A stretch of 33,039 bases of DNA. Source: Bdellovibrio sp. (GTDB taxonomy: Bacteria; Bdellovibrionota; Bdellovibrionia; Bdellovibrionales; Bdellovibrionaceae). The notes below the pieces were generated by a model that was given only the letters and a program-made list of their open reading frames with translations, was not told where the DNA came from and made no database searches. Shown here piece after piece: positions 93 through 33,039 of this stretch; the stretch's first letter is position 1, and each line of letters starts with the position of its first letter. The position numbers and the translations under genes were made by a program. The stretch lies in contig JANYDD010000016.1 of NCBI GenBank assembly GCA_025359945.1, forward strand, positions 1 through 33,039, read 5' to 3'.

Positions 93-2321
<2,229 letters not shown>

Positions 2322-9714: not shown

Positions 9715-11073
9715 ATGAACAAACAACTAAATGCCAATAAACCTTACCTTTTATTGGCCTTGATCTTTTTAGGCGGCTGTAGCTGGGTTTCGGGTTCTAT
9801 CGAAACAACTGACCTTTCTTTAAAGACTTCCCCTTCGACCGATCCAGCTTACCAAAACGTTTCCGCGTTGTTTGAATTTAAAGCTTCCAATTTAACCCTG
9901 CCATCAATGATGACTTTAACTAGGGCTTCAACAGGGACCTACTGCGATTCAACTGGAAACGTCGTGACCGCGGCAATTAACTCGCCCCGCTTTGATTACG
10001 ACTGCAATACGCTGACCTTGAAGGGACTTCTAGTTGAACCCGCGGCCACCAATTATGTGACCCGTGCTGAAGCCTTTAATAGCGGTTGGTGGGTTCAAAA
10101 TTACTCGATGTCTGTCACGACTGATGCTACCACTGCTCCCGACGGAGCGACCTCTGCTGAGTTGGTAGCAGACACGGACGGCGCCAATGTTTCGTTCGTT
10201 CACTTTGCAAAAACAACGGGTGTTGGCAATTCGGATGAATACGTCGCCAGCGTCTTTCTAAAGCAAGGAACGGCAGCCACCGTACGTACTGCTGTGTGGT
10301 TTCTGAATGGTGGCACACAATTATTAAGATATAATTTAATCACTTGGGCGACGATAGATTCGGCTGGTCCATCCTGCTCGGGGGGAGCCGGCACTTGCGG
10401 CATGATCAAATATCCCAACGGCTGGTATCGATTTTGGAGTTGCGGAACAAATAATGGAACTGGAAATACAGAAGTTCGCTCAACCGTAGAAATCTATCCC
10501 CTTGCCCCAGCCGGAACAGGAAATGTCTATGCATGGGGTGGCCAACTAGAACGTGGTTGGGTTCCTACAAGTTATATCCCAACTTCCGTTGGCACAGTGA
10601 CTCGGTCTGCAGATAATTTATTGGTAACGCCCTCGTCAACACTGTCGACTTCGTGGGCTTTGGTGATGATTTTTTCCAAGCCCCTTTACGAGCTTGCGGC
10701 TTCAGCCAGCTCATTTCGATTATTTGATTTCTACTCGTCGGTCAGCCCGACTACTTTGACGACTTCTGCCGCTTACAATGCGGTCAGCACCAAAATAGAT
10801 TTGCTGCAAAATGGATCTAGTACGGCCAGTGTGTCGTCAACTTCGGCGGCATCAGTAATTAATCAGAGCTACACAGTGATCGCCAGCCAGCAACCCACAT
10901 CGACCTCGCTGAAATTAGATTCAGATACAACGGCAAGCTTGTCGCAAACTAGCAGCCTAACACCCAACCGACTGGCGATTTTTGGAACTAGTTCGACTAC
11001 CCAATCTACGGGTCATTTAAAAGAGCTTCGCATCTACGACAAAATCGATACCAGTCAACAAACGCCCAACTAA
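9715..11073 (+). CDS. Lipoprotein with phage tail-fibre-like and LamG-like domains
   Basis: 452-aa protein with a type II signal peptide and lipobox LGGC (Cys22), so probably anchored in the outer membrane. Residues about 65-300 match a pattern common in phage tail or spike proteins. An opening RASTGTY with a D-x-x-G-x-x-x-T-A block is followed by PRFDYD, GLLVEPAATNYV, NGWYRFW, AWGGQLERG and TSYIPTSVGTVTRSAD. The remaining ~150 residues are Ser/Thr-rich and beta-strand-like, ending GHLKELRIYDK, which resembles a LamG/concanavalin fold. The likely role is surface carbohydrate or polymer binding (inference). No other phage genes are nearby. Its compact, low-charge composition contrasts with neighbouring genes and suggests acquisition from a phage source. 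Confidence 0.75.
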   Translation: MNKQLNANKPYLLLALIFLGGCSWVSGSIETTDLSLKTSPSTDPAYQNVSALFEFKASNLTLPSMMTLTRASTGTYCDSTGNVVTAAINSPRFDYDCNTLTLKGLLVEPAATNYVTRAEAFNSGWWVQNYSMSVTTDATTAPDGATSAELVADTDGANVSFVHFAKTTGVGNSDEYVASVFLKQGTAATVRTAVWFLNGGTQLLRYNLITWATIDSAGPSCSGGAGTCGMIKYPNGWYRFWSCGTNNGTGNTEVRSTVEIYPLAPAGTGNVYAWGGQLERGWVPTSYIPTSVGTVTRSADNLLVTPSSTLSTSWALVMIFSKPLYELAASASSFRLFDFYSSVSPTTLTTSAAYNAVSTKIDLLQNGSSTASVSSTSAASVINQSYTVIASQQPTSTSLKLDSDTTASLSQTSSLTPNRLAIFGTSSTTQSTGHLKELRIYDKIDTSQQTPN

Positions 11074-22835: not shown

Positions 22836-25724
22836 GTGAGTTCAAATTCTATTCTTAGTACAAATTCTGAATTTCAAAATCGTCACATCGGACCAAAAGT
22901 TCACGAAGTTCAGCTGATGCTTCAAGAACTTGGTTTTTCTTCGTTAGAAGAATTGGCTAAAAAAGTAATTCCAAGACAAATTGTTAGTGAATCTACATTT
23001 GAAAATTTGGGCCAAGGCTTATCTGAATATAATTTGCTAAAGAAAATTAAGAACATTGTTTCAGAAAATCAAATTTTTCAAAACTTTATCGGCTTGGGCT
23101 ATTCGAACTGCATCACTCCGCCAGTCATACAAAGAAATATTTTAGAGAATCCGCTGTGGTACACGGCCTACACGCCCTATCAACCAGAAATTTCGCAAGG
23201 TAGGATGGAGTCCCTGTTAAACTTTCAAACCTTGGTCAAAGATTTGACTGGAATGGAAATTTCCAACAGCTCGCTTCTAGACGAAGGGACCGCTGCTGCC
23301 GAAGCCATGAGCATGGCACACCAATTGTGTAAAAATAATTCCAATGATTTTTTAGTTTCGCCATCGCTACACCCTCAAGTGATCGAGGTGTTAAGAACTC
23401 GCGCCGAGCCCCTGGGTCTAAAAATGATTTTGGAAGAACCCAGGCAACATGCTTTTCAAAAAGATTTATTTTGCGTGATTGTGTCCTACCCCACATCAGA
23501 CGGACGCGTTTTGGATTACTCGACGATTGTCGAGAAAGCCAAAGCAAAAGGCGCACTGATGTTAGTTGCGGCAGATTTACTGGCGTTGACTTTACTAAAA
23601 CCCCCCGGAGAATGGGGCGCCGATGTTGTTTTTGGAAACTCACAAAGATTTGGAGTTCCGCTAGGATTTGGCGGACCGCATGCGGCGTTTTTATCAACTA
23701 GGGATGCTTTCAAGCGATTGATCCCAGGGCGTTTGGTAGGTGTTTCGGTGGATAGCCAAGGGGACATGGCCCTGCGATTGACTCTGCAAACTCGCGAGCA
23801 ACATATTCGCCGCGAAAAAGCGACTAGCAATATTTGCACCGCTCAAGTTTTGTTAGCCAATATGGCCGCGATGTACGCCGTGTACCATGGACCAAAGGGT
23901 TTAAAAAATATCGCCTTACGCACTCATAAACTAACTCAAGTTTTGTCGGCGAAATTAAAAAAAATGGGTTTTCAAGTCATAAACGAAAGTTTTTTTGACA
24001 CGCTTTTTGTGCAAACAAAGCTTAGTTCTGAAATCGTTCAGTATTCAAAAAAACTAAAAATTAATTTTAGAATTGTTGATGATCAAACCTTGGGAATTTC
24101 ACTGGATGAAACTTCTGACTTAGAATCTTTATCGTTAATTTTATCCGCTTTTTCGATGGGGCAAAAGTCACAATTCGATTTTCAAAGCGAATTAGATTCA
24201 ACCCCCAAGTTTCAATTTCCTGAAAACTTGGCTAGAGCCTCTTTATTTTTGACTCATCCCGTTTTCAACACCCACCATTCTGAAACTGAACTTTTGCGCT
24301 ACATCACGGCTTTGCAAAACAAGGATATTACTTTAGCGCAGTCGATGATTCCGCTGGGGTCGTGCACCATGAAGCTGAATGCGACCGCAGAATTAATGCC
24401 GGTTTCGTGGCCGGAAATAAACCAAATTCATCCCTTCGCGCCGCTTGAGCAAGCTCAGGGTTATCTAAAGTTAATCCAAGATTTAGAAATGAAATTGCGC
24501 GAGATCACAGGTTTTGCTGCCGTCAGTTTGCAACCCAACGCAGGTTCGCAAGGGGAATACGCAGGCCTTTTGGTCATCCGAAAATATCTGCAAAGTAAAT
24601 CGCAAGGTCATCGAAAAATTTGTTTAATTCCAAGCTCGGCTCACGGGACTAACCCGGCATCTGCGGTGATGGCCGGCTTTGAAGTGGTGGTAGTTCAGTG
24701 CGATGATTTGGGCAATGTGGACGTGGCCGACTTAAAAGCAAAAGCCGAAAAACATAAAGACCAATTGGGCGCATTGATGATCACCTACCCGTCGACTCAC
24801 GGAGTTTTCGAGGAATCGATCAAAGAAGTTTGCGCGATCGTTCACGATTGTGGCGGGCAGGTTTACATGGACGGCGCCAATCTAAATGCCTTGGTGGGAA
24901 TTTGCCGTCCTGGCGAATTTGGTCCCGATGTATCGCATATGAATTTGCATAAAACTTTTAGTATTCCTCATGGCGGCGGCGGCCCCGGTGTCGGACCAAT
25001 CGGAGTCGCTGAACATTTAAAAAACTATTTGCCAACTCATTCAATCACGCCAGAATGCGGCCCCGGAATGGGAATTCCTGCGGTCAGCTCGGCCCCGTGG
25101 GGAAGCGCTAGCATCCTGCCGATCTCGTGGGCTTACATCGAAATGATGGGTGCTGCGGGTTTACGAAAAGCCACCTTGGTTTCAATTCTTAGTGCTAATT
25201 ATTTGGCTAAAAAACTAAATCCTTTTTTCAATGTTTTGTACAAAGGGCAAGAGGGTCTGGTCGCCCACGAATGCATTATCGATTTACGACCCTTTAAAAA
25301 AATTCATATCGAAGTGAACGACATCGCCAAACGCCTGATGGATTTTGGATTTCATTCGCCGACGATGTCTTGGCCTGTGGCTGGAACGCTGATGATTGAA
25401 CCTACCGAAAGCGAATCAAAACCCGAGCTTGATCGTTTTATCGAAGCCATGACAACTATCTACCAAGAAATTCAACAGATCGAAAATGGGACCTATTCTG
25501 AAAATGATAATCCTTTAAGAAATGCTCCGCACACTTTAAAGGTTTTATTAAAATCGGAATGGAACCATTCTTACTCTCGCGAGATCGCAGCCTTTCCAAG
25601 GCCCTGGGTTAAGCAAAATAAATATTGGCCGACAGTTTCAAGGGTCGACAACGTTTACGGCGACAAACACGTAAACTGCTCGTGTCCGCCGATGGAAAAC
25701 TATAAAACAGAAGCCAACGCTTGA
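22836..25724 (+). CDS. gcvP: Glycine dehydrogenase (decarboxylating), P protein
   Basis: PLP enzyme that decarboxylates glycine and passes the aminomethyl group to the lipoyl arm of GcvH. At 962 aa it is the fused single-chain form containing both P1-like and P2-like halves. The N-terminus has the typical RHIGP. The PLP lysine is Lys706 in [18 protein letters not shown]. The characteristic [20 protein letters not shown] and AHGTNPASA segments are also seen. The GTG at 22836 is supported by AAGGGG seven bases upstream. The stop overlaps the next start by four bases (TTGA). A promoter with phased repeats lies just upstream. Confidence 0.97.
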
Positions 25725-26722
25725 CCCAGAGAGTCCTGTTCGTTCGCACGGATAAAATTGGGGACGTGGCGGTGACGCTCCCCCTAGATCAATTAACGCC
25801 CTTTAAATCAAGCGACGCCACTTGGTTAATTCAGCCAATGACAGCCTTTGTACTTCAGAACGCAAACCCCAAGAGAAACTATATAACTGTAGATATGGCA
25901 CGCCCGTTTAATACTTTTTGGAGACTCATTTCTGAAATTCAAAAACGCCAATTTGACGAAGTCTACTTTTTCTTTGGCCCCTGGTGGTTAGCTTTTTTAT
26001 TTTTCCTGCTTCGTATTCCAGTGCGGGTCGGCCGCAAAAGCCAATGGTATAGTTTTTTATTTTTTAATTTCTCAGATCGGCAAAAGCGGCACTTTGGAAA
26101 AAAGCACGAATCCCTTTTTGGGAAGGACCTTGTCGGCCTAAAGTATCCTGAAGTTCAGAATGAAACTTTGCCATTTTTATCTTTACAAGCACCGCAGAAA
26201 AGACAACTGTTTGAGAAGTTTCAAATTTATCCAGGTGATTATTTTATCGTACACCCCGGGATGGCCGGATCTGCGCTGAACTGGCCCACAGCAAACTACC
26301 AGCAGTTGATTCAAAAGCTCTCGATGGCTTCTCAAGTGATTGTCACAGGAACTGCTGCAGATGAAAATTATTTGGCTCCCTTAAAGGCTGATCCCCAGCT
26401 GAGCTCCAATTCGAAAGTTATATTTTTGGATGGTCATTTAAAATCGGAAGAATTTTTATACTTTCTTAAAAACGCTAAAGGCGTCTTTGCCCCTTCTACC
26501 GGAACTTTGCATTTGGCATCTAGTTTAGGCGCGCGCACCCTTGGAATTTATTCTCCCGTTGCAACCCAAAAGTCCGAACGCTGGGGGCCACGAGGTCCAC
26601 AAGTCAAAACGCTCACACCACAGGTAAAATGCCCGGCTGCTTTTTCCTGTTGGAAAGAAAAATGCCCGTTGTACAATTGCCTGGCGCAAATTTCAGTGGA
26701 TGAAGTGATCGGCAATTTGTGA
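25721..26722 (+). CDS. Glycosyltransferase family 9 (heptosyltransferase-like)
   Basis: 333-aa GT-B enzyme of the WaaC/WaaF/RfaQ type, which adds ADP-heptose or a related sugar to the LPS core at the inner face of the cytoplasmic membrane. The N-terminus has [18 protein letters not shown], the family's opening motif. The C-terminal part has [15 protein letters not shown] and [25 protein letters not shown], where the ST-G-T-L-H-LA block binds the donor. The last third has four cysteines ([17 protein letters not shown]), as in many GT9 proteins. The start is the TTG at 25721 overlapping the gcvP stop. It matches functionally with hldA in the window, although it sits among glycine cleavage genes. 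Confidence 0.88.
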
Positions 26723-27828
26723 TCGATCTGAAATCAAAGCCTTATCTATTTTGGAAAAGTCAGCTGGATAAAATCCAGAATATTCTCTTAAAGAACTATC
26801 AGATGAATTTATATGACGCCCAAAATTTGAGAACTTTAGCGGCAGCAATTCTTAAACTCAGCGACCACTATCAAAGTACACAGGATAAATTAAAGATTAC
26901 GGACTGGTCTGATAAAAAAAATCAGATGGCATACTTAGCTTATTTTCACTTCTTGAATCTGCAAAGATCCAGGCGCGTGTTCACGCAGGCTGATCAATTT
27001 AATTTTTTTCAAGGCGTTGAACTGGTCTTGGATTTTGGTTCGGGATTGGGTGCGGGTTCTTACGATTGGAAGGGTGAGAAATTTTTTTTTGACTGGCCCA
27101 CCGCCCATCGCCTCCATCAGCAAATTGCCGATGACGTGCCATCACCAGATCATTGGCGGTCGCAGGATTTAGACCTTTCGGATTTTTTGGCGTTAAAACA
27201 AAAAAAATCAGTTTTAGGAATCTTTTCTTTTTCATTAGTCGAGATGAAATCCTGGCCCGAATGGATTTTTAATTTGGATAAAATTATTTTTATCGAACCA
27301 TCGGTTCAAAATATTTCTAGGGATCTAATGGCTTTGCGACAGACACTGATTGAAAATAGTTTTCAGGTTGTGGCTCCATGCGTGCATCAAGAAGCCTGCC
27401 CGATGCTAACGTATTCAAAAAAAGATTGGTGCCATGACCGACTTGATACCTTTCAGCCCGATTGGTTTAAGGCTTTAGAAACCGTGTTGCCAATTAAAAA
27501 TCAAACCCTCACTTTAAGTTATTTGGCTGTACAAAAAAAAATGGTCACTCAAAAAGAATCTCAGTCCACCGGCGGAAATGCCCGGGTGGTCAGCGACTGG
27601 CTTCCAGAAAAAGGGAAATCTCGTTTGATGATTTGCCAAAATCAGCATCGTCAGTTTTTGTCGGCACTAAAACGAAATTCAGAAATCAATATTGAATTCA
27701 AACGAGGTCAGTTAATTCAACTAGACGACAGCTTAGATTTTATGAAAACATCTGCTGAAATTCGTGTTGAAAGAACCGACCAGGTCAAAGAAATAATCGC
27801 TAACAATGGAGTTTCGGATGGAAATTAA
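26719..27828 (+). CDS. Rsm22/METTL17-like small-subunit rRNA methyltransferase
   Basis: 369-aa protein with a SAM-binding motif LDFGSGLGAGS (104-114) and the signature APCVHQEACPML...DWCH of the Rsm22 family. In mitochondrial members these cysteines hold an Fe-S cluster and the protein assists small ribosomal subunit assembly; bacterial members are poorly studied. Here Cys221, Cys227 and Cys238 form the first group and Cys306 (in LMICQNQH) is a plausible fourth ligand. Target base and activity are unknown. The GTG at 26719 overlaps the GT9 stop (GTGA), and the end overlaps gcvT by 11 bases. It is part of the same tight transcription unit as gcvP. Confidence 0.75.
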   Translation: MIDLKSKPYLFWKSQLDKIQNILLKNYQMNLYDAQNLRTLAAAILKLSDHYQSTQDKLKITDWSDKKNQMAYLAYFHFLNLQRSRRVFTQADQFNFFQGVELVLDFGSGLGAGSYDWKGEKFFFDWPTAHRLHQQIADDVPSPDHWRSQDLDLSDFLALKQKKSVLGIFSFSLVEMKSWPEWIFNLDKIIFIEPSVQNISRDLMALRQTLIENSFQVVAPCVHQEACPMLTYSKKDWCHDRLDTFQPDWFKALETVLPIKNQTLTLSYLAVQKKMVTQKESQSTGGNARVVSDWLPEKGKSRLMICQNQHRQFLSALKRNSEINIEFKRGQLIQLDDSLDFMKTSAEIRVERTDQVKEIIANNGVSDGN

Positions 27829-28915
27829 AAAAACGCCGCTGTATCAAGAGCACCTTAAACAAGGCGCAAAGATGGTTAATTTTGCAGGTTGGTCGATGCC
27901 GATTTCCTATTCGCAATTAATCGAAGAGCACTTGCACGTCAGGCAACATGTGGGTCTATTTGATGTTTCGCATATGGGAGAAGTTCGCGTGCAGGGCGAA
28001 AAAGCCCTGGACACATTGCAATGGCTAACGACCAATGACGTCTCCAAAATTTCGCAGGGACAAGCGCAGTATTCTTTACTGCCCAATTTTCAGGGCGGGC
28101 TAGTGGATGATATAATTGTGTATTGCATGATCCACAATCGCGATTATTTAGTTTGCGTGAACGCGGCCAACAAAGACAAAGATTTTGCCTGGATGAAGGA
28201 AAATAACAAGGGCGCTGAAATCACCGACGAGAGCGATCATTGGGCGCAAATTGCGGTTCAAGGACCACAAGCCATACGAGTGTGCGAAAAACTTTTTAAT
28301 TTGGATTTGTCGGCCATGCCGCCTTTTAATTTTATTTCTTTTTCCTATAAGGGTTCTGCTGCGATTTTGGCAACAACGGGTTACACCGGCGAAAAAGGTT
28401 GCGAAGTTTTTATCGAGAAAAATCGGGCTGCGGATTTATGGATCGATTTATTAAAGTCTGAAGTGGCTAGTGTAAAACCCATTGGCTTGGGTGCGCGTGA
28501 CACCTTACGAACCGAAATGAAATACAGTCTTTATGGCCACGAAATAAACGACACTAGCAACCCTTTCGAGGCCGGCCTGGGTTGGGCAATCAAGCCTGCG
28601 GCCAAAGATTTTATAAATAAGGAAAAAATTCTAGCCTATCAGAAAAATCCAACTCGAAAACTGATTGGCTTTACGATGATCGATAAAGGAATTCCTCGCG
28701 AAAATTATCCCATTATGGATCCTACGACTAAAGAAGTTATTGGTCATGTGACTAGCGGAACGCATTCACCGTCGTTGGGTGAACCCGTAGGAATTGGATA
28801 TGTTCCGACACGATTGGCTCAGCTTGGACAAGAAATTTTGATTGATATTCGTGGTCGCGCCGCGAAGGCGGTTGTTGCAAAAACTCCGTTTGTGAAAACA
28901 AGCTTAAGCCAATAA
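27818..28915 (+). CDS. gcvT: Aminomethyltransferase, glycine cleavage T protein
   Basis: Transfers the methylene group from the aminomethyl-lipoyl arm of GcvH to tetrahydrofolate and releases ammonia. From the ATG at 27818 the protein is 365 aa, normal for the family. It has the N-terminal KTPLYQEHLKQGAKMVNFAG, the FDVSHMGE motif, the GGLVDDIIVY segment with the key Asp, GARDTLRTEM, and the C-terminal SGTHSPSLG. GGAG at 27808-27811 sets the start at 27818 rather than the ATG at 27806. It overlaps the preceding gene. gcvH, which commonly sits beside gcvT, does not follow. Confidence 0.96.
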   Translation: MEIKKTPLYQEHLKQGAKMVNFAGWSMPISYSQLIEEHLHVRQHVGLFDVSHMGEVRVQGEKALDTLQWLTTNDVSKISQGQAQYSLLPNFQGGLVDDIIVYCMIHNRDYLVCVNAANKDKDFAWMKENNKGAEITDESDHWAQIAVQGPQAIRVCEKLFNLDLSAMPPFNFISFSYKGSAAILATTGYTGEKGCEVFIEKNRAADLWIDLLKSEVASVKPIGLGARDTLRTEMKYSLYGHEINDTSNPFEAGLGWAIKPAAKDFINKEKILAYQKNPTRKLIGFTMIDKGIPRENYPIMDPTTKEVIGHVTSGTHSPSLGEPVGIGYVPTRLAQLGQEILIDIRGRAAKAVVAKTPFVKTSLSQ

Positions 28916-29098: not shown

Positions 29099-30019
29099 TC
29101 ATTTCTCTGTGTTGGCGCGAGAAAGGTCGCTAGCTAAATCCTGAAATTGCCCATCTAACCATTTCTTTGAAAAATCATAAACCTGTTCCCAACCCGGGCT
29201 GATGGCCAATGAATGATCGCGACCGGGAAACATTCGAAACTCGGTGTATCCGGGAGTATTTTGATAAGCTTTGAAATTCTCAAAGCTAAGTCGTGCCGGA
29301 ATGATGTGATCGTTTTCACCAGCGATGATCAACAGGGGGCCTCGCGCTTTTTTGAAATCAACTTTTCCTGCCGAGCCAAGTGGTCCACGACCAACACGTC
29401 GGGACTCGGGGACATAAAATTCTTCAAAAATCTTTTGCTGGTTTTCTGCAGATTGCTGATTGGTAAAGGCATACGAAAACGCTGACGAATTCATTTCAAT
29501 CGGCTTATCAATCCTGGCGAAAGGATTTAATGCCGGCCAATTCGAACGTAAGAAAGACCAACTGAAAACAAAAATTCCTTTAGGTGGCGCCGAATCTAAA
29601 ACGATAGCGGCCGAACCTAAACCTTCGCTTAATAAGATTTGCGCGACAAGGCCACCCATCGAGTGCCCGATCAAAATCGGTTTTACAGATTTTCCCCACA
29701 GGATTTCGCGATAAAATTCTAAAACTTGACCTAATTGAAGCTGACCCAATTCTTTCAGATGACTTTTAGATTGCTGTTGATGGACTGGCAAATCGTGCAA
29801 AGGCCAAGCAGGCGCTGTAACGCAATATCCATCCGCTTCAAACTTTTGAATCCAACCTGCCCACGAGGCCGGTGTCATAAACATTCCATGAATCAGCATA
29901 ATTTCCTTGGGACAAATCGGGCGAACGGTGGACGATCCCGTCTGCGCCGGACTGACTGAAGTCTGCATTAGAATCAACAGACTCAAAACAAACGTGGATT
30001 TAAAAATAGACAAATTCAT
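29099..30019 (-). CDS. Secreted alpha/beta hydrolase, lipase/lysophospholipase-like
   Basis: Exported hydrolase (306 aa from the ATG at 30019) with a signal peptide, MNLSIFKSTFVLSLLILMQT followed by SVSPAQ. The triad is clear: Ser120 in GHSMGG, Asp237 in AGENDHIIP and His269 in GRDHSLA, with an HG oxyanion motif in LIHGMFM. This fits monoacylglycerol lipases, lysophospholipases or related esterases acting in the periplasm or outside the cell. The start at 30019 is preferred because AGGAGG lies six bases upstream; a longer frame from 30046 adds nine residues with no function apparent. It lies 84 bases downstream of the RCC1 gene on the same strand. Confidence 0.85.
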   Translation of the reverse strand: MNLSIFKSTFVLSLLILMQTSVSPAQTGSSTVRPICPKEIMLIHGMFMTPASWAGWIQKFEADGYCVTAPAWPLHDLPVHQQQSKSHLKELGQLQLGQVLEFYREILWGKSVKPILIGHSMGGLVAQILLSEGLGSAAIVLDSAPPKGIFVFSWSFLRSNWPALNPFARIDKPIEMNSSAFSYAFTNQQSAENQQKIFEEFYVPESRRVGRGPLGSAGKVDFKKARGPLLIIAGENDHIIPARLSFENFKAYQNTPGYTEFRMFPGRDHSLAISPGWEQVYDFSKKWLDGQFQDLASDLSRANTEK

Positions 30020-30102
30020 ATTGGACCTCCTCAAAAGATAGAGCATCCTAACGGATTGAGAAAAAAATTTCGCCTGTTATTTTTATGACACTGTTACTGG
30101 AA

Positions 30103-32724
30103 TCAAAATACGAAAGAAGGCTGGAAAGCACCATTAGAATTCAGCCTTGCCAGCTGCCCCCAGTTATTCGCCCCCCAACAAGTCAGCGATCCATCGGCTA
30201 AAACTGCGCAGGTGTGATGAGTGCTTGCAGAAACACTAAGTACCTCTGGCAGTGTCGACAAGTTATACAGGGACATCTGCGGATAAAAAGCCATGCCATC
30301 CACTAAAAGATCATAACTATTTCTGCCCCAACAAGAAACCCGGCCGCCTGACAAGACAGCACAAGCGTGGGCCCCGCCCACTGAAACGGACTGCGCAGTT
30401 CCCAAATTAACTACCGGCGCGGGCCTCGCATTTAAGTTAGAAAAAAGACTTGCTGAATTGGGACCTAAATAACCCGCAAGATCGATACCCCAGCACGAGA
30501 CAGTGTGGTCAGTTAATACCGCGCACGTTTGATTGTCGCCGGCAGAAATAGATAGAACACCAAAAAGACCTGTAACCGATACTGGTACCGCCGAGTCCAC
30601 GTTTCTTAAATTTCCTAACTGACTGGCAAAATTATAACCCCAACATCTTACGGTCTGATCGGCCAATAGGGCACAGGTATGATTGAACCCAGCGCTTACG
30701 GCGGTCACGGAAGTCAGCCCGGAAACCAGCACTGGAATGCTAGAATCTAGCTTTGATCCATTTCCCAATTGCCCGTAGGAATTCGAACCCCAGCACGACA
30801 CCGTCTCATCCATCAGTAAAGCACAAGTATGGCCGCTACCAGACGCGATCGATTGATTCTTGGATTGAACTGGGGGAAGATTTTTTATTATTTTTGGCGC
30901 ACTTACGGTTCCGTCCGGCTGAGAAATTCCCCAGCAAGAAACTGAATTGTCCGCCAAGACAGCGCAGACCTGCGAGCGTCCTGAAGAGATGGATTTCACG
31001 TTGCTAACTGAAGAAACCAATACCGGAAGATCCGAGGATTTTCCAGGTGCCGTTCCACCCAACTGAGATGAAGAATTGTCGCCAAAACAGCTGACCGAAT
31101 TGTCTTTCATTAAAACGCAGGTGCTAGAATTTCCGGTCACCACTTCTTTGACCGAAGAATTTAATAGCGCCATAGTCGGCGTCGGAAAAGATCCCGAAAA
31201 GCCGTTTCCTAATTGTCCTGAGTTAGAGTTTCCCCAGCAGCTCAAAGATCCATCCGCGACTAATAGACCGCAAGCATGAGAAACTCCGATGGCGATGGAC
31301 TTTACTGCCGGAAGCATCAAAACAGGAACGGGATTCACACTGACACTGTTATCCCAACAGGTCGCCATATCATCACTTTGAATCGCACACGTTTTAAAAC
31401 CACTGCTGGCAAGAGCTTTCACGCCTTTGATTCCCGGAACTTGAAGGGGCAAACCATTTGGCGCGGATCCAATAATACCCCAACAAAAAACTGATTGATC
31501 TGATCCAGAAATAGCGCATGCTTGATTAAGCCCCGCTACGATCGATGATACGTTCGTCAAACCAGCAACTGTTTGTAAACCTTGAGATGACTTTTTTCCA
31601 TTTCCCAATCGGCCATAGGCCCCATCACCCCAACATGAAACCGATTGATCGCTTTGCAAAGCGCAGGTGAAACTTTGCCCCGCCGAGATTTGCACTACCG
31701 ACAAAAGTCCCGGCAATATCATGGGACTTAATTCTTCAGGATTTTCAGATGCGCCAGCCAATTCACCCAAAGCATTGGACCCCCAGCAGGCTACGGTGTC
31801 ATCGCTTAAAATTCCACACGTGTGCTGAGTACCTGCCGATACAGATTTGAACGCTAGGGCGACTACAATTTGGACCGGTGTGGTTTTAGAAACTTTTTTA
31901 CCAATACCCAGTTGTCCGCTATCGTTCGAACCCCAACAGTAAAGCGATCCCTCATCTTTGATCGCGCAAGTGTGATAGGCGCCCGCACTCAGCGAGACAA
32001 CGCCATTCAAATTTAATACTGGCACAGGAACCGAGGAAGAAATGCGTGATCCGTTTCCCAGTTGGCCTTGTGAATTATCGCCCCAGCACGCCACCGAAGA
32101 ATTTTTTAAAACTGCACAACTGTGGCTTCGTCCTGAGACCACGGATTGGTAAACCACTGGCCCATCAAATTTTGAAAACTTACGTATGAGCAGGTGCCGA
32201 CGAAACTCATCAAAACTTTCAGATGCGCTGGCTTGCGTTGCCTCGATAGCCAACAAAGAACTGTCCGGAAAGTGCGAAAGATCCACTTTGACTGGAAAAC
32301 TTTCTAAAGAACCCTTAGGAATTTGAACGCTGGCCGTGACGGGCACAACCGAGGAATTTTGCGGATCAAATAGGGCATATTGAATCTCGATATCGTGATC
32401 GACAGCTGCAGAAATATAGAATTTTTCTTCGATGACCGCACAATCATTGGTTTTGTAATAAGATTTATTAAAGCCAATCACGCCCTGCCCGGCAGTCCGT
32501 TCAGTAGACAAAATGGGACCAGGAACTTGGGTTTTACAATTGTACTCGGACAAGCTGCTAGAGCTGTCGGTTTGAGTTCTTAATATATTAACAGGATTTG
32601 TCGTGTGAAATTTTGCCGCGCAATTTTGGAAGCTGAAGGTCAATCCAAATGCAACAACAACAAAAAAAATAAGGAACAGAAAGCGCTGACGATGAATTTG
32701 TTGACGAGTAAAATAGAACCTCAT
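30103..32724 (-). CDS. RCC1-repeat lipoprotein, 14 beta-propeller blades
   Basis: 873-aa protein with a long N-terminal signal and lipobox-like SFQNC (Cys35), predicting a lipid-anchored surface or periplasmic protein. Residues about 36-190 form a separate domain with few repeats. From about 191 to the end there are 14 RCC1-type repeats averaging 49 residues. Each has a HTCAVL-type strand and a closing SCWG strand, with most repeats also carrying GQLGNG. The paired cysteines in nearly every repeat suggest blade disulfides. Fourteen equals two canonical seven-bladed propellers. RCC1 propellers bind proteins or nucleic acid; the partner here is unknown. The ATG at 32724 has a GGGGG stretch upstream and a good promoter match at 32742-32770. 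Confidence 0.88.
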   Translation of the reverse strand: MRFYFTRQQIHRQRFLFLIFFVVVAFGLTFSFQNCAAKFHTTNPVNILRTQTDSSSSLSEYNCKTQVPGPILSTERTAGQGVIGFNKSYYKTNDCAVIEEKFYISAAVDHDIEIQYALFDPQNSSVVPVTASVQIPKGSLESFPVKVDLSHFPDSSLLAIEATQASASESFDEFRRHLLIRKFSKFDGPVVYQSVVSGRSHSCAVLKNSSVACWGDNSQGQLGNGSRISSSVPVPVLNLNGVVSLSAGAYHTCAIKDEGSLYCWGSNDSGQLGIGKKVSKTTPVQIVVALAFKSVSAGTQHTCGILSDDTVACWGSNALGELAGASENPEELSPMILPGLLSVVQISAGQSFTCALQSDQSVSCWGDGAYGRLGNGKKSSQGLQTVAGLTNVSSIVAGLNQACAISGSDQSVFCWGIIGSAPNGLPLQVPGIKGVKALASSGFKTCAIQSDDMATCWDNSVSVNPVPVLMLPAVKSIAIGVSHACGLLVADGSLSCWGNSNSGQLGNGFSGSFPTPTMALLNSSVKEVVTGNSSTCVLMKDNSVSCFGDNSSSQLGGTAPGKSSDLPVLVSSVSNVKSISSGRSQVCAVLADNSVSCWGISQPDGTVSAPKIIKNLPPVQSKNQSIASGSGHTCALLMDETVSCWGSNSYGQLGNGSKLDSSIPVLVSGLTSVTAVSAGFNHTCALLADQTVRCWGYNFASQLGNLRNVDSAVPVSVTGLFGVLSISAGDNQTCAVLTDHTVSCWGIDLAGYLGPNSASLFSNLNARPAPVVNLGTAQSVSVGGAHACAVLSGGRVSCWGRNSYDLLVDGMAFYPQMSLYNLSTLPEVLSVSASTHHTCAVLADGSLTCWGANNWGQLARLNSNGAFQPSFVF

Positions 32725-32901: not shown

Positions 32902-33039
32902 TATTAATAAGTGCGTTAGATAGTATACATAAACATTGATTTAATTTTCAGATATGTTTTAATTGGTTATGAAAAAAACTGACGGCAGAAAATTAGACCA
33001 TCAAACCCTAGAAGATATGAGAGTACGCGCTGTAAAAGC
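32902..33039 (+). mobile_element. IS630-type insertion sequence, 5' end (right copy)
   Basis: Reverse complement of 4-141 with one mismatch. The block begins with TA (32902-32903) after a divergent flank, consistent with a TA target site. The element reads outward past the window edge. It lies 177 bases upstream of the RCC1 gene start and does not interrupt a recognisable gene. Confidence 0.8.
32969..33039 (+). CDS. IS630 family transposase, N-terminal fragment (cut by window edge)
   Basis: ATG at 32969 begins MKKTDGRKLDHQTLEDMRVR, then AVK and a partial codon at the window end. It is the second copy of the transposase start seen on the minus strand at 1-74, with Gly6 in place of Ala6. The ribosome site is weak. 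Only the first 23 codons are present. Confidence 0.7.
   Translation, partial: MKKTDGRKLDHQTLEDMRVRAVK

Follow-up and report, generated by a model that had tools for sequence, protein, structure and literature searches.

What does Bdellovibrio sp. do with a lipoprotein made of cysteine-paired RCC1 repeats? The ORF that raises this question occupies 30103-32724 on the minus strand of the window (the whole 33,039-nucleotide stretch of DNA analysed here) and encodes 873 aa from an ATG start. We suggest, with a probability of roughly two in three, that the product is an outer-membrane lipoprotein whose paired seven-bladed RCC1 propellers form a rigid, disulfide-stapled binding platform. Such a platform is the most likely role because RCC1 relatives known from outside the cytoplasm either bind proteins, as BLIP-II does, or, like CR4, are believed to have ligands, and by this analogy a binding function would be somewhat favoured.

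Repeats, cysteine pairs and the predicted lipid anchor

We detected 14 RCC1 repeats, starting at residues 194, 244, 294, 345, 394, 437, 476, 527, 578, 625, 675, 725, 779 and 830, with a period of 39-54 residues and the array running to the last residue of the protein; a repeat HMM also counted 14. The Cys pair C-x9/10-C[WF] is present in 14/14 repeats, with a spacing of 10 in 12 repeats and 11 in two, and the second Cys stands in the context CWG in 12/14 repeats, CWD in repeat 6 and CFG in repeat 8. Repeats 5, 6 and 9 are degenerate (39-47 aa, GQLG missing). Membership in the RCC1 repeat superfamily is given by Pfam matches over the curated cut-offs for WD40_RLD (E = 1.4e-130, 436 bits, cut-off 150), RCC1_2 (E = 4.6e-90, 294 bits, cut-off 22) and RCC1 (218 bits, cut-off 21.7). 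The RCC1_2 cut-off was passed at 12 places in the genome search, all of them inside this ORF. A PLDc match (E = 9.5e-05, residues 298-317) is spurious, lying inside a repeat, with no stretch passing alone.

The protein has 31 Cys residues, 28 of them in the repeat pairs, with C35 in the lipobox and C63 and C95 in the N-terminal part; the latter two may form a fifteenth pair, which would leave no Cys over. In the predicted model the pairs lie on neighbouring hairpin strands (for instance, 203 in strand 201-206 and 213 in strand 211-215), and each blade probably contains a disulfide. The genome encodes a 409-aa protein with VKOR and DsbA-like domains and a CPHC motif (L197, G000:C36:20000-23000, minus strand), a second DsbA-like protein and a LolA match; a DsbB match was not detected in the genome. 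The presence of LolA and the VKOR-DsbA fusion makes both lipoprotein sorting and envelope disulfide formation plausible. With its Cys pair in every blade, the protein offers a marker by which extracytoplasmic oxidative folding can be tested directly.

A side observation concerns export. In the set of related ORFs from the same order, a Tat-like RRxFL motif was found in 4/4 ORFs lacking the Cys pair (L074, L080, L086, L107) and in 0/59 ORFs with pairs. A rule linking Cys pairs to Sec and their absence to Tat is only a tendency: the four Tat-like ORFs are alike after the motif and probably represent one family, and the wider phylum set holds two exceptions, a lipoprotein with 14 repeats and one Cys pair (L142) and a Cys-paired ORF with an RRTFV motif and a lipobox (L153).

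The signal peptide (residues 1-34, 32623..32724, minus strand) has a basic n-region and a hydrophobic core (core score 3.59 before the Cys), and a Cys stands at the end of the hydrophobic region, as in lipoproteins. The predicted lipidation site is C35 (SFQN-C-AA, 32620..32622, minus strand). The canonical lipobox is L-[AST]-[GA]-C, and SFQNC deviates from it by having FQN before the Cys; judged from related sequences, [FY]QNC is the form of the lipobox in this lineage, so the lipoprotein assignment rests on comparative evidence. By our own rule, which includes a position limit, a lipobox is present in 46/62 related ORFs of the order (47/63 with this protein included), often at the same place as FQNC or YQNC, and in 25/39 ORFs of the phylum set. 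The [FY]QNC DNA pattern occurs 35 times in the genome, compared with 18 for the reversed control; 30 of the 35 sites were readable, and six of these, including this protein, are lipoboxes by the rule. One more (L169) was missed solely by the position limit, giving six other long ORFs of the genome with [FY]QNC lipoboxes. That the protein is a lipoprotein is hardly in doubt.

The first-pass annotation had proposed fourteen Cys-paired RCC1 repeats, stabilised by disulfides and attached by a lipobox and an N-terminal domain of ~155 residues. The repeats and their pairing are confirmed, with E values far beyond chance; the anchor is backed by the relatives and by other ORFs of the same genome, the N-terminal domain is present as residues 36-190, and the disulfides are likely given the VKOR-DsbA fusion.

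By default, LolA places lipoproteins in the inner leaflet of the outer membrane. C35 is followed by Ala-Ala; in E. coli an Asp after the lipobox Cys keeps lipoproteins at the inner membrane, a rule that may not carry to this phylum. We predict an outer-membrane location with good confidence, and for propellers facing outward we see even odds. The same two-propeller lipoprotein could instead face the periplasm as a scaffold or a BLIP-II-like inhibitor of an envelope enzyme, unrelated to other cells, a less probable but serious alternative. The default delivery to the inner leaflet favours the periplasmic orientation, as does BLIP-II, a solved, secreted seven-bladed relative (PMC9218822). The amplified and diverse repertoire in relatives, with 49 matches in one related genome, fits outward recognition better, and the RCC1 repeat protein MXAN_0889, which PMC4158809 lists as found specifically in Myxococcus xanthus outer-membrane vesicles, also points away from the periplasm, though such a listing does not show topology.

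Neighbouring genes and relatives

The next gene downstream encodes an exported alpha/beta hydrolase (29099..30046, minus strand). The RCC1 lipoprotein could be its partner, for example a binding subunit for its substrate, since both genes lie on the same strand only 56 bp apart. We consider this improbable: in its three best orthologues the hydrolase gene has no RCC1 repeats within roughly 1.5 kb, so the linkage is not conserved in these three. Promoter and terminator scans gave a number of sites about equal to chance and are therefore uninformative about a possible operon.

The gene lies near the contig end (33039) in a source genome of 2.74 Mb, 106 contigs and 96% completeness. At 32963-33037 (plus strand) a 25-codon open frame runs off the contig end; it resembles the beginning of a transposase from an IS element, and such an element would account for the contig break. 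Elsewhere in the window, gcvP and gcvT (22836-28915) enclose heptosyltransferase-like and Rsm22-like genes, and gcvH was not recognised among the scanned ORFs of the window. A 452-aa protein at 9715-11073 (plus strand) matches a phage or GTA head spike fiber domain (NF048003, E = 5.3e-30) and has no Pfam match.

The whole-protein search matched 42 of 59 genomes, the protein's own genome counted, and outside that genome the top match shows 47% identity over residues 193-373 (L003) or 43% over 186-416 (L002). Of 191 genomes sampled across the phylum, 129 contain RCC1_2, compared with 0/14 control genomes. The earlier view that RCC1 folds are known mostly from cytoplasmic or nuclear eukaryotic proteins therefore fails: besides these phylum counts, many of the relatives are lipoproteins, and structures have been solved for BLIP-II and plant CR4, which are secreted or extracellular. 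Members of the RCC1/BLIP-II group in the dataset of PMC9218822 are described there as mostly bacterial, and PMC5941755 mentions an RCC1 repeat domain in sequences from Bdellovibrio that carry the annotation RTX toxin. The protein is a typical member of a family common in these bacteria.

The first-pass annotation had offered prey contact as an example of the role of a surface recognition or adhesion protein. Such a role would suit a lipoprotein whose domains are of a binding type and whose phylum has many RCC1 proteins. Nevertheless, the scan of named genomes revealed relatives in seven records, titled Dehalococcoidia, marine group bacterium Sva0996, SAR202, Anaerolineae, Chloroflexi, Proteobacteria and an unnamed bacterium, with similar Cys-paired proteins in those titled SAR202, Dehalococcoidia and others, and 14 repeats in similar proteins of the first two, so the architecture alone does not point to predation. 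In addition, this is the only RCC1 protein found in its genome, whereas many relatives have several. We consider an adhesin or recognition protein for prey contact unlikely, and the more general binding platform is preferred.

Ring closure and blade number

The AlphaFold2 model was built from an alignment of 17 sequences (the RCC1 lipoprotein and 16 of 24 listed relatives) and has a mean pLDDT of 73.7, with most of residues 190-870 at 80-96 and residues 1-187 largely unmodelled. Foldseek matches to the predicted model were compared by VIA-align. Seven-bladed UVR8 fits each half of the model at 1.6-2.0 A over 326-336 residues. UVR8 4dnv_A aligns to model residues 522..864 (Z 47.4, 1.9 A, 336 residues) and UVR8 6xzl to 187..873 (Z 48.0, 1.7 A, 328 residues), the UVR8 rows that span 187..873 aligning 328 residues at 1.6-1.7 A. 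Each half is thus predicted to be a seven-bladed propeller, and two seven-bladed rings are very probable.

The ranges of these alignments also suggest how the rings close. With 328 residues aligned across a 687-residue range, the simplest reading is that propeller 1 is covered together with a segment close to the C-terminus. On propeller 2, the majority of HERC, RCC1 and RPGR rows begin at 497-516, either ahead of or at strand 513-518, the last of repeat 7, and they stop at 843-845. Because of the UVR8 range and these starts, the rings are probably interlocked in the model, with strand 513-518 belonging to propeller 2 and the C-terminal strand closing propeller 1. Propeller 1 would accordingly comprise residues ~191-512 (31189..32154, minus strand; repeats 1-6 and the first three strands of repeat 7), as delimited by Pfam, repeat positions, the model and the structure alignments. 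Propeller 2 would comprise residues ~513-866 (30127..31188, minus strand; the last strand of repeat 7 and repeats 8-14 without the very last strand), and residues 867-873 (30106..30126, minus strand; model strand 870-871) are predicted to close propeller 1.

Residues 36-190 (32155..32619, minus strand) contain a linker and an unclassified domain, probably beta-rich, with no Pfam match up to E = 10. Among 140 genomes of the order the first 190 residues matched only in their own genome, and a close orthologue with the same N-terminus was not found in the other 139. The single-sequence model of this part has seven strands at low confidence (pLDDT 47). In six relatives examined, a Calx-beta domain at this position was over the Pfam cut-off in three, below it in two and without a match in one. 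A Calx-beta identity, suggested by eye, was rejected here on the lack of a Pfam match, an hhalign probability of 0.1% against the corresponding parts of the relatives, and the pLDDT of 47. Foldseek with that model found nothing at E <= 0.001, a Ca2+-binding domain of NCX1 appearing only at rank 35, too uncertain at this confidence to be of use.

Repeat numbers in the relatives give a second line of evidence on blade grouping. The order set consisted of 60 regions hand-picked from the best matches, in which 62 related ORFs were counted by an HMM built from the repeats of the RCC1 lipoprotein and iterated on this same set: 44 of the 62 have a multiple of seven repeats (27 with 7, 17 with 14) and 58 are within one of a multiple. 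Since the HMM had already seen that set, we added a wider phylum set of 40 further regions from the top of the RCC1_2 genome list, mostly other families, yielding 39 ORFs with at least four repeats and, after dropping seven that run off the fetched DNA, 32 complete ones. Exact multiples were found in 28/32 (14 with 7, 11 with 14, two with 21 and one with 28, the last possibly opening with out-of-frame sequence) and 31/32 are within one, the four exceptions having 13, 13, 12 and 8 repeats. Pooling both sets gives 72 exact multiples, mostly 7 or 14, among 94 ORFs, and 89 within one. Binomial p-values against a one-in-seven chance are about 8e-24 (order set) and 4e-20 (phylum set), and are indicative only, as the proteins are related and the draw was non-random. 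Outside the phylum, L042, L043 and L044 have 14 repeats, L047 and L048 have seven, L045 (a cut ORF) has 13, and three frames of L046 have 8, 8 and 5.

One locus of the order set (L065:4887-8462, plus strand) has two adjacent ORFs in the same frame with 9 and 5 repeats, split by one stop and together making 14; the two frames were entered separately in the count.

The pair of seven-bladed propellers proposed in the first-pass annotation is thus upheld by two of the checks it had named, structure prediction of blade closure (each half a complete seven-bladed fold, 1.6-2.0 A to UVR8) and repeat-number variation in relatives, which is quantised in sevens. A single 14-bladed ring would agree with the lack of a long linker between repeats 7 and 8 (spacing 51), but is almost certainly wrong, as the commonest relatives have seven repeats, each half aligns with a complete seven-bladed structure, and interlocked closure would itself explain the missing linker. 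A longer linker was considered as a sign of the 7+7 grouping and rejected, the median 7-to-8 spacing in 18 ORFs being 51.5 compared with 50-52.5 elsewhere; a spacing of 66 was found only in L096 and L060, apparent near-copies.

Duplication of a whole propeller is unsupported: among 18 ORFs with fourteen repeats, the similarity of repeat i to repeat i+7 reached p < 0.05 in just two (p = 0.085 in the RCC1 lipoprotein), and such a duplication is therefore not visible. A better fit is that blades were amplified one at a time and closed rings were then selected, and blade-wise amplification has been argued across propeller lineages (PMC9218822). Quantisation in sevens with no visible whole-propeller duplication is a good argument that ring closure is under selection; it is the most interesting part of the analysis, the protein alone being ordinary for its phylum. 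The literature searched yielded no publication that deals with this protein or describes quantised repeat numbers in its family. A tentative and rather doubtful generalisation is that blades are amplified singly and only whole rings survive (7, 14, 21, 28), with 14-repeat rings interlocked by strand exchange at both ends, and that in this lineage double rings stapled by disulfides, carried on lipid anchors and also on membrane kinases, serve as a diversifying repertoire for outward recognition.

For the binding platform itself, we propose that the protein would be exported by Sec, lipidated at C35 and transferred to the outer membrane by LolA, and that the VKOR-DsbA fusion would oxidise one cross-strand Cys pair per blade in the 14 blades. 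Propeller 2 would be inserted within the chain of propeller 1: repeat 7 would give its last strand to the beginning of propeller 2, and the final strand of repeat 14 would complete propeller 1. Residues 36-190 would hold the propellers off the membrane, and the propeller loops could bind a protein or glycan ligand.

Comparison with known systems

The seven-bladed RCC1 fold predicted for this protein is also that of UVR8 (the best match, Z 46-48), RCC1, the HERC RLD and RPGR, each of these eukaryotic domains having one propeller in contrast to two in the RCC1 lipoprotein. UVR8, RCC1, HERC and RPGR proteins are intracellular; Ran GEF activity would not be expected of an exported bacterial lipoprotein. 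BLIP-II is, like the present protein, bacterial and exported from the cytoplasm; it is secreted, seven-bladed and RCC1-like, and binds a protein. The structural match to it is weaker (Z 27-28), and BLIP-II has a single propeller with shorter blades and is not lipid-anchored.

The WRAP propeller of Nostoc punctiforme is of the WD40 type and, unlike the RCC1 lipoprotein, has near-identical blades fused to a STAND ATPase. Its 14 blades form two propellers of seven blades each (PMC9218822). Lipoproteins with RCC1 repeats from the same order and phylum (such as L093, L058, L104 and L052) likewise have a lipobox and 7 or 14 Cys-paired repeats, but differ in their N-terminal parts (Calx-beta in three), compared with the unmatched N-terminal domain here.

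The plant CRINKLY4/ACR4 ectodomain (PDB 7a0j, 7a0k) is extracellular and carries Cys-paired RCC1-like repeats, as does the RCC1 lipoprotein. According to PMC4617170, the CR4 ectodomain has seven repeats with the motif C(X~10)CWG, one disulfide predicted per repeat and the Cys pairs on neighbouring hairpin strands, as in our model; the templates used there, RCC1 and BLIP-II, are described in that account as lacking a Cys pair per blade. The repeats agree with the CRINKLY4 motif, 14/14 Cys pairs having 9-10 residues between them, and CR4 7a0k aligns to propeller 1 (194..509; Z 27.0, 2.6 A over 256). CRINKLY4 has one propeller of three strands per blade, a TNFR-like domain, a membrane helix and a kinase (PMC4617170), and the RCC1 lipoprotein has two propellers, a lipid anchor and no kinase match. 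Membership of the CRINKLY4 family was rejected, as the chain ends 24 residues beyond the last Cys and lacks that match.

Three ORFs from relatives (L066:5394-7553, L084:3387-5774 and L070:3567-5936, in G029, G035 and G004) encode a Ser/Thr kinase, a membrane helix and then Cys-paired RCC1 repeats (five Cys pairs, six HMM repeats), the kinase frame of L066 being cut at the contig end. These resemble the plant CR4 receptor kinases in their parts, in reverse order. The outward recognition repertoire tentatively proposed above would be comparable in build to the plant CR4 receptors.
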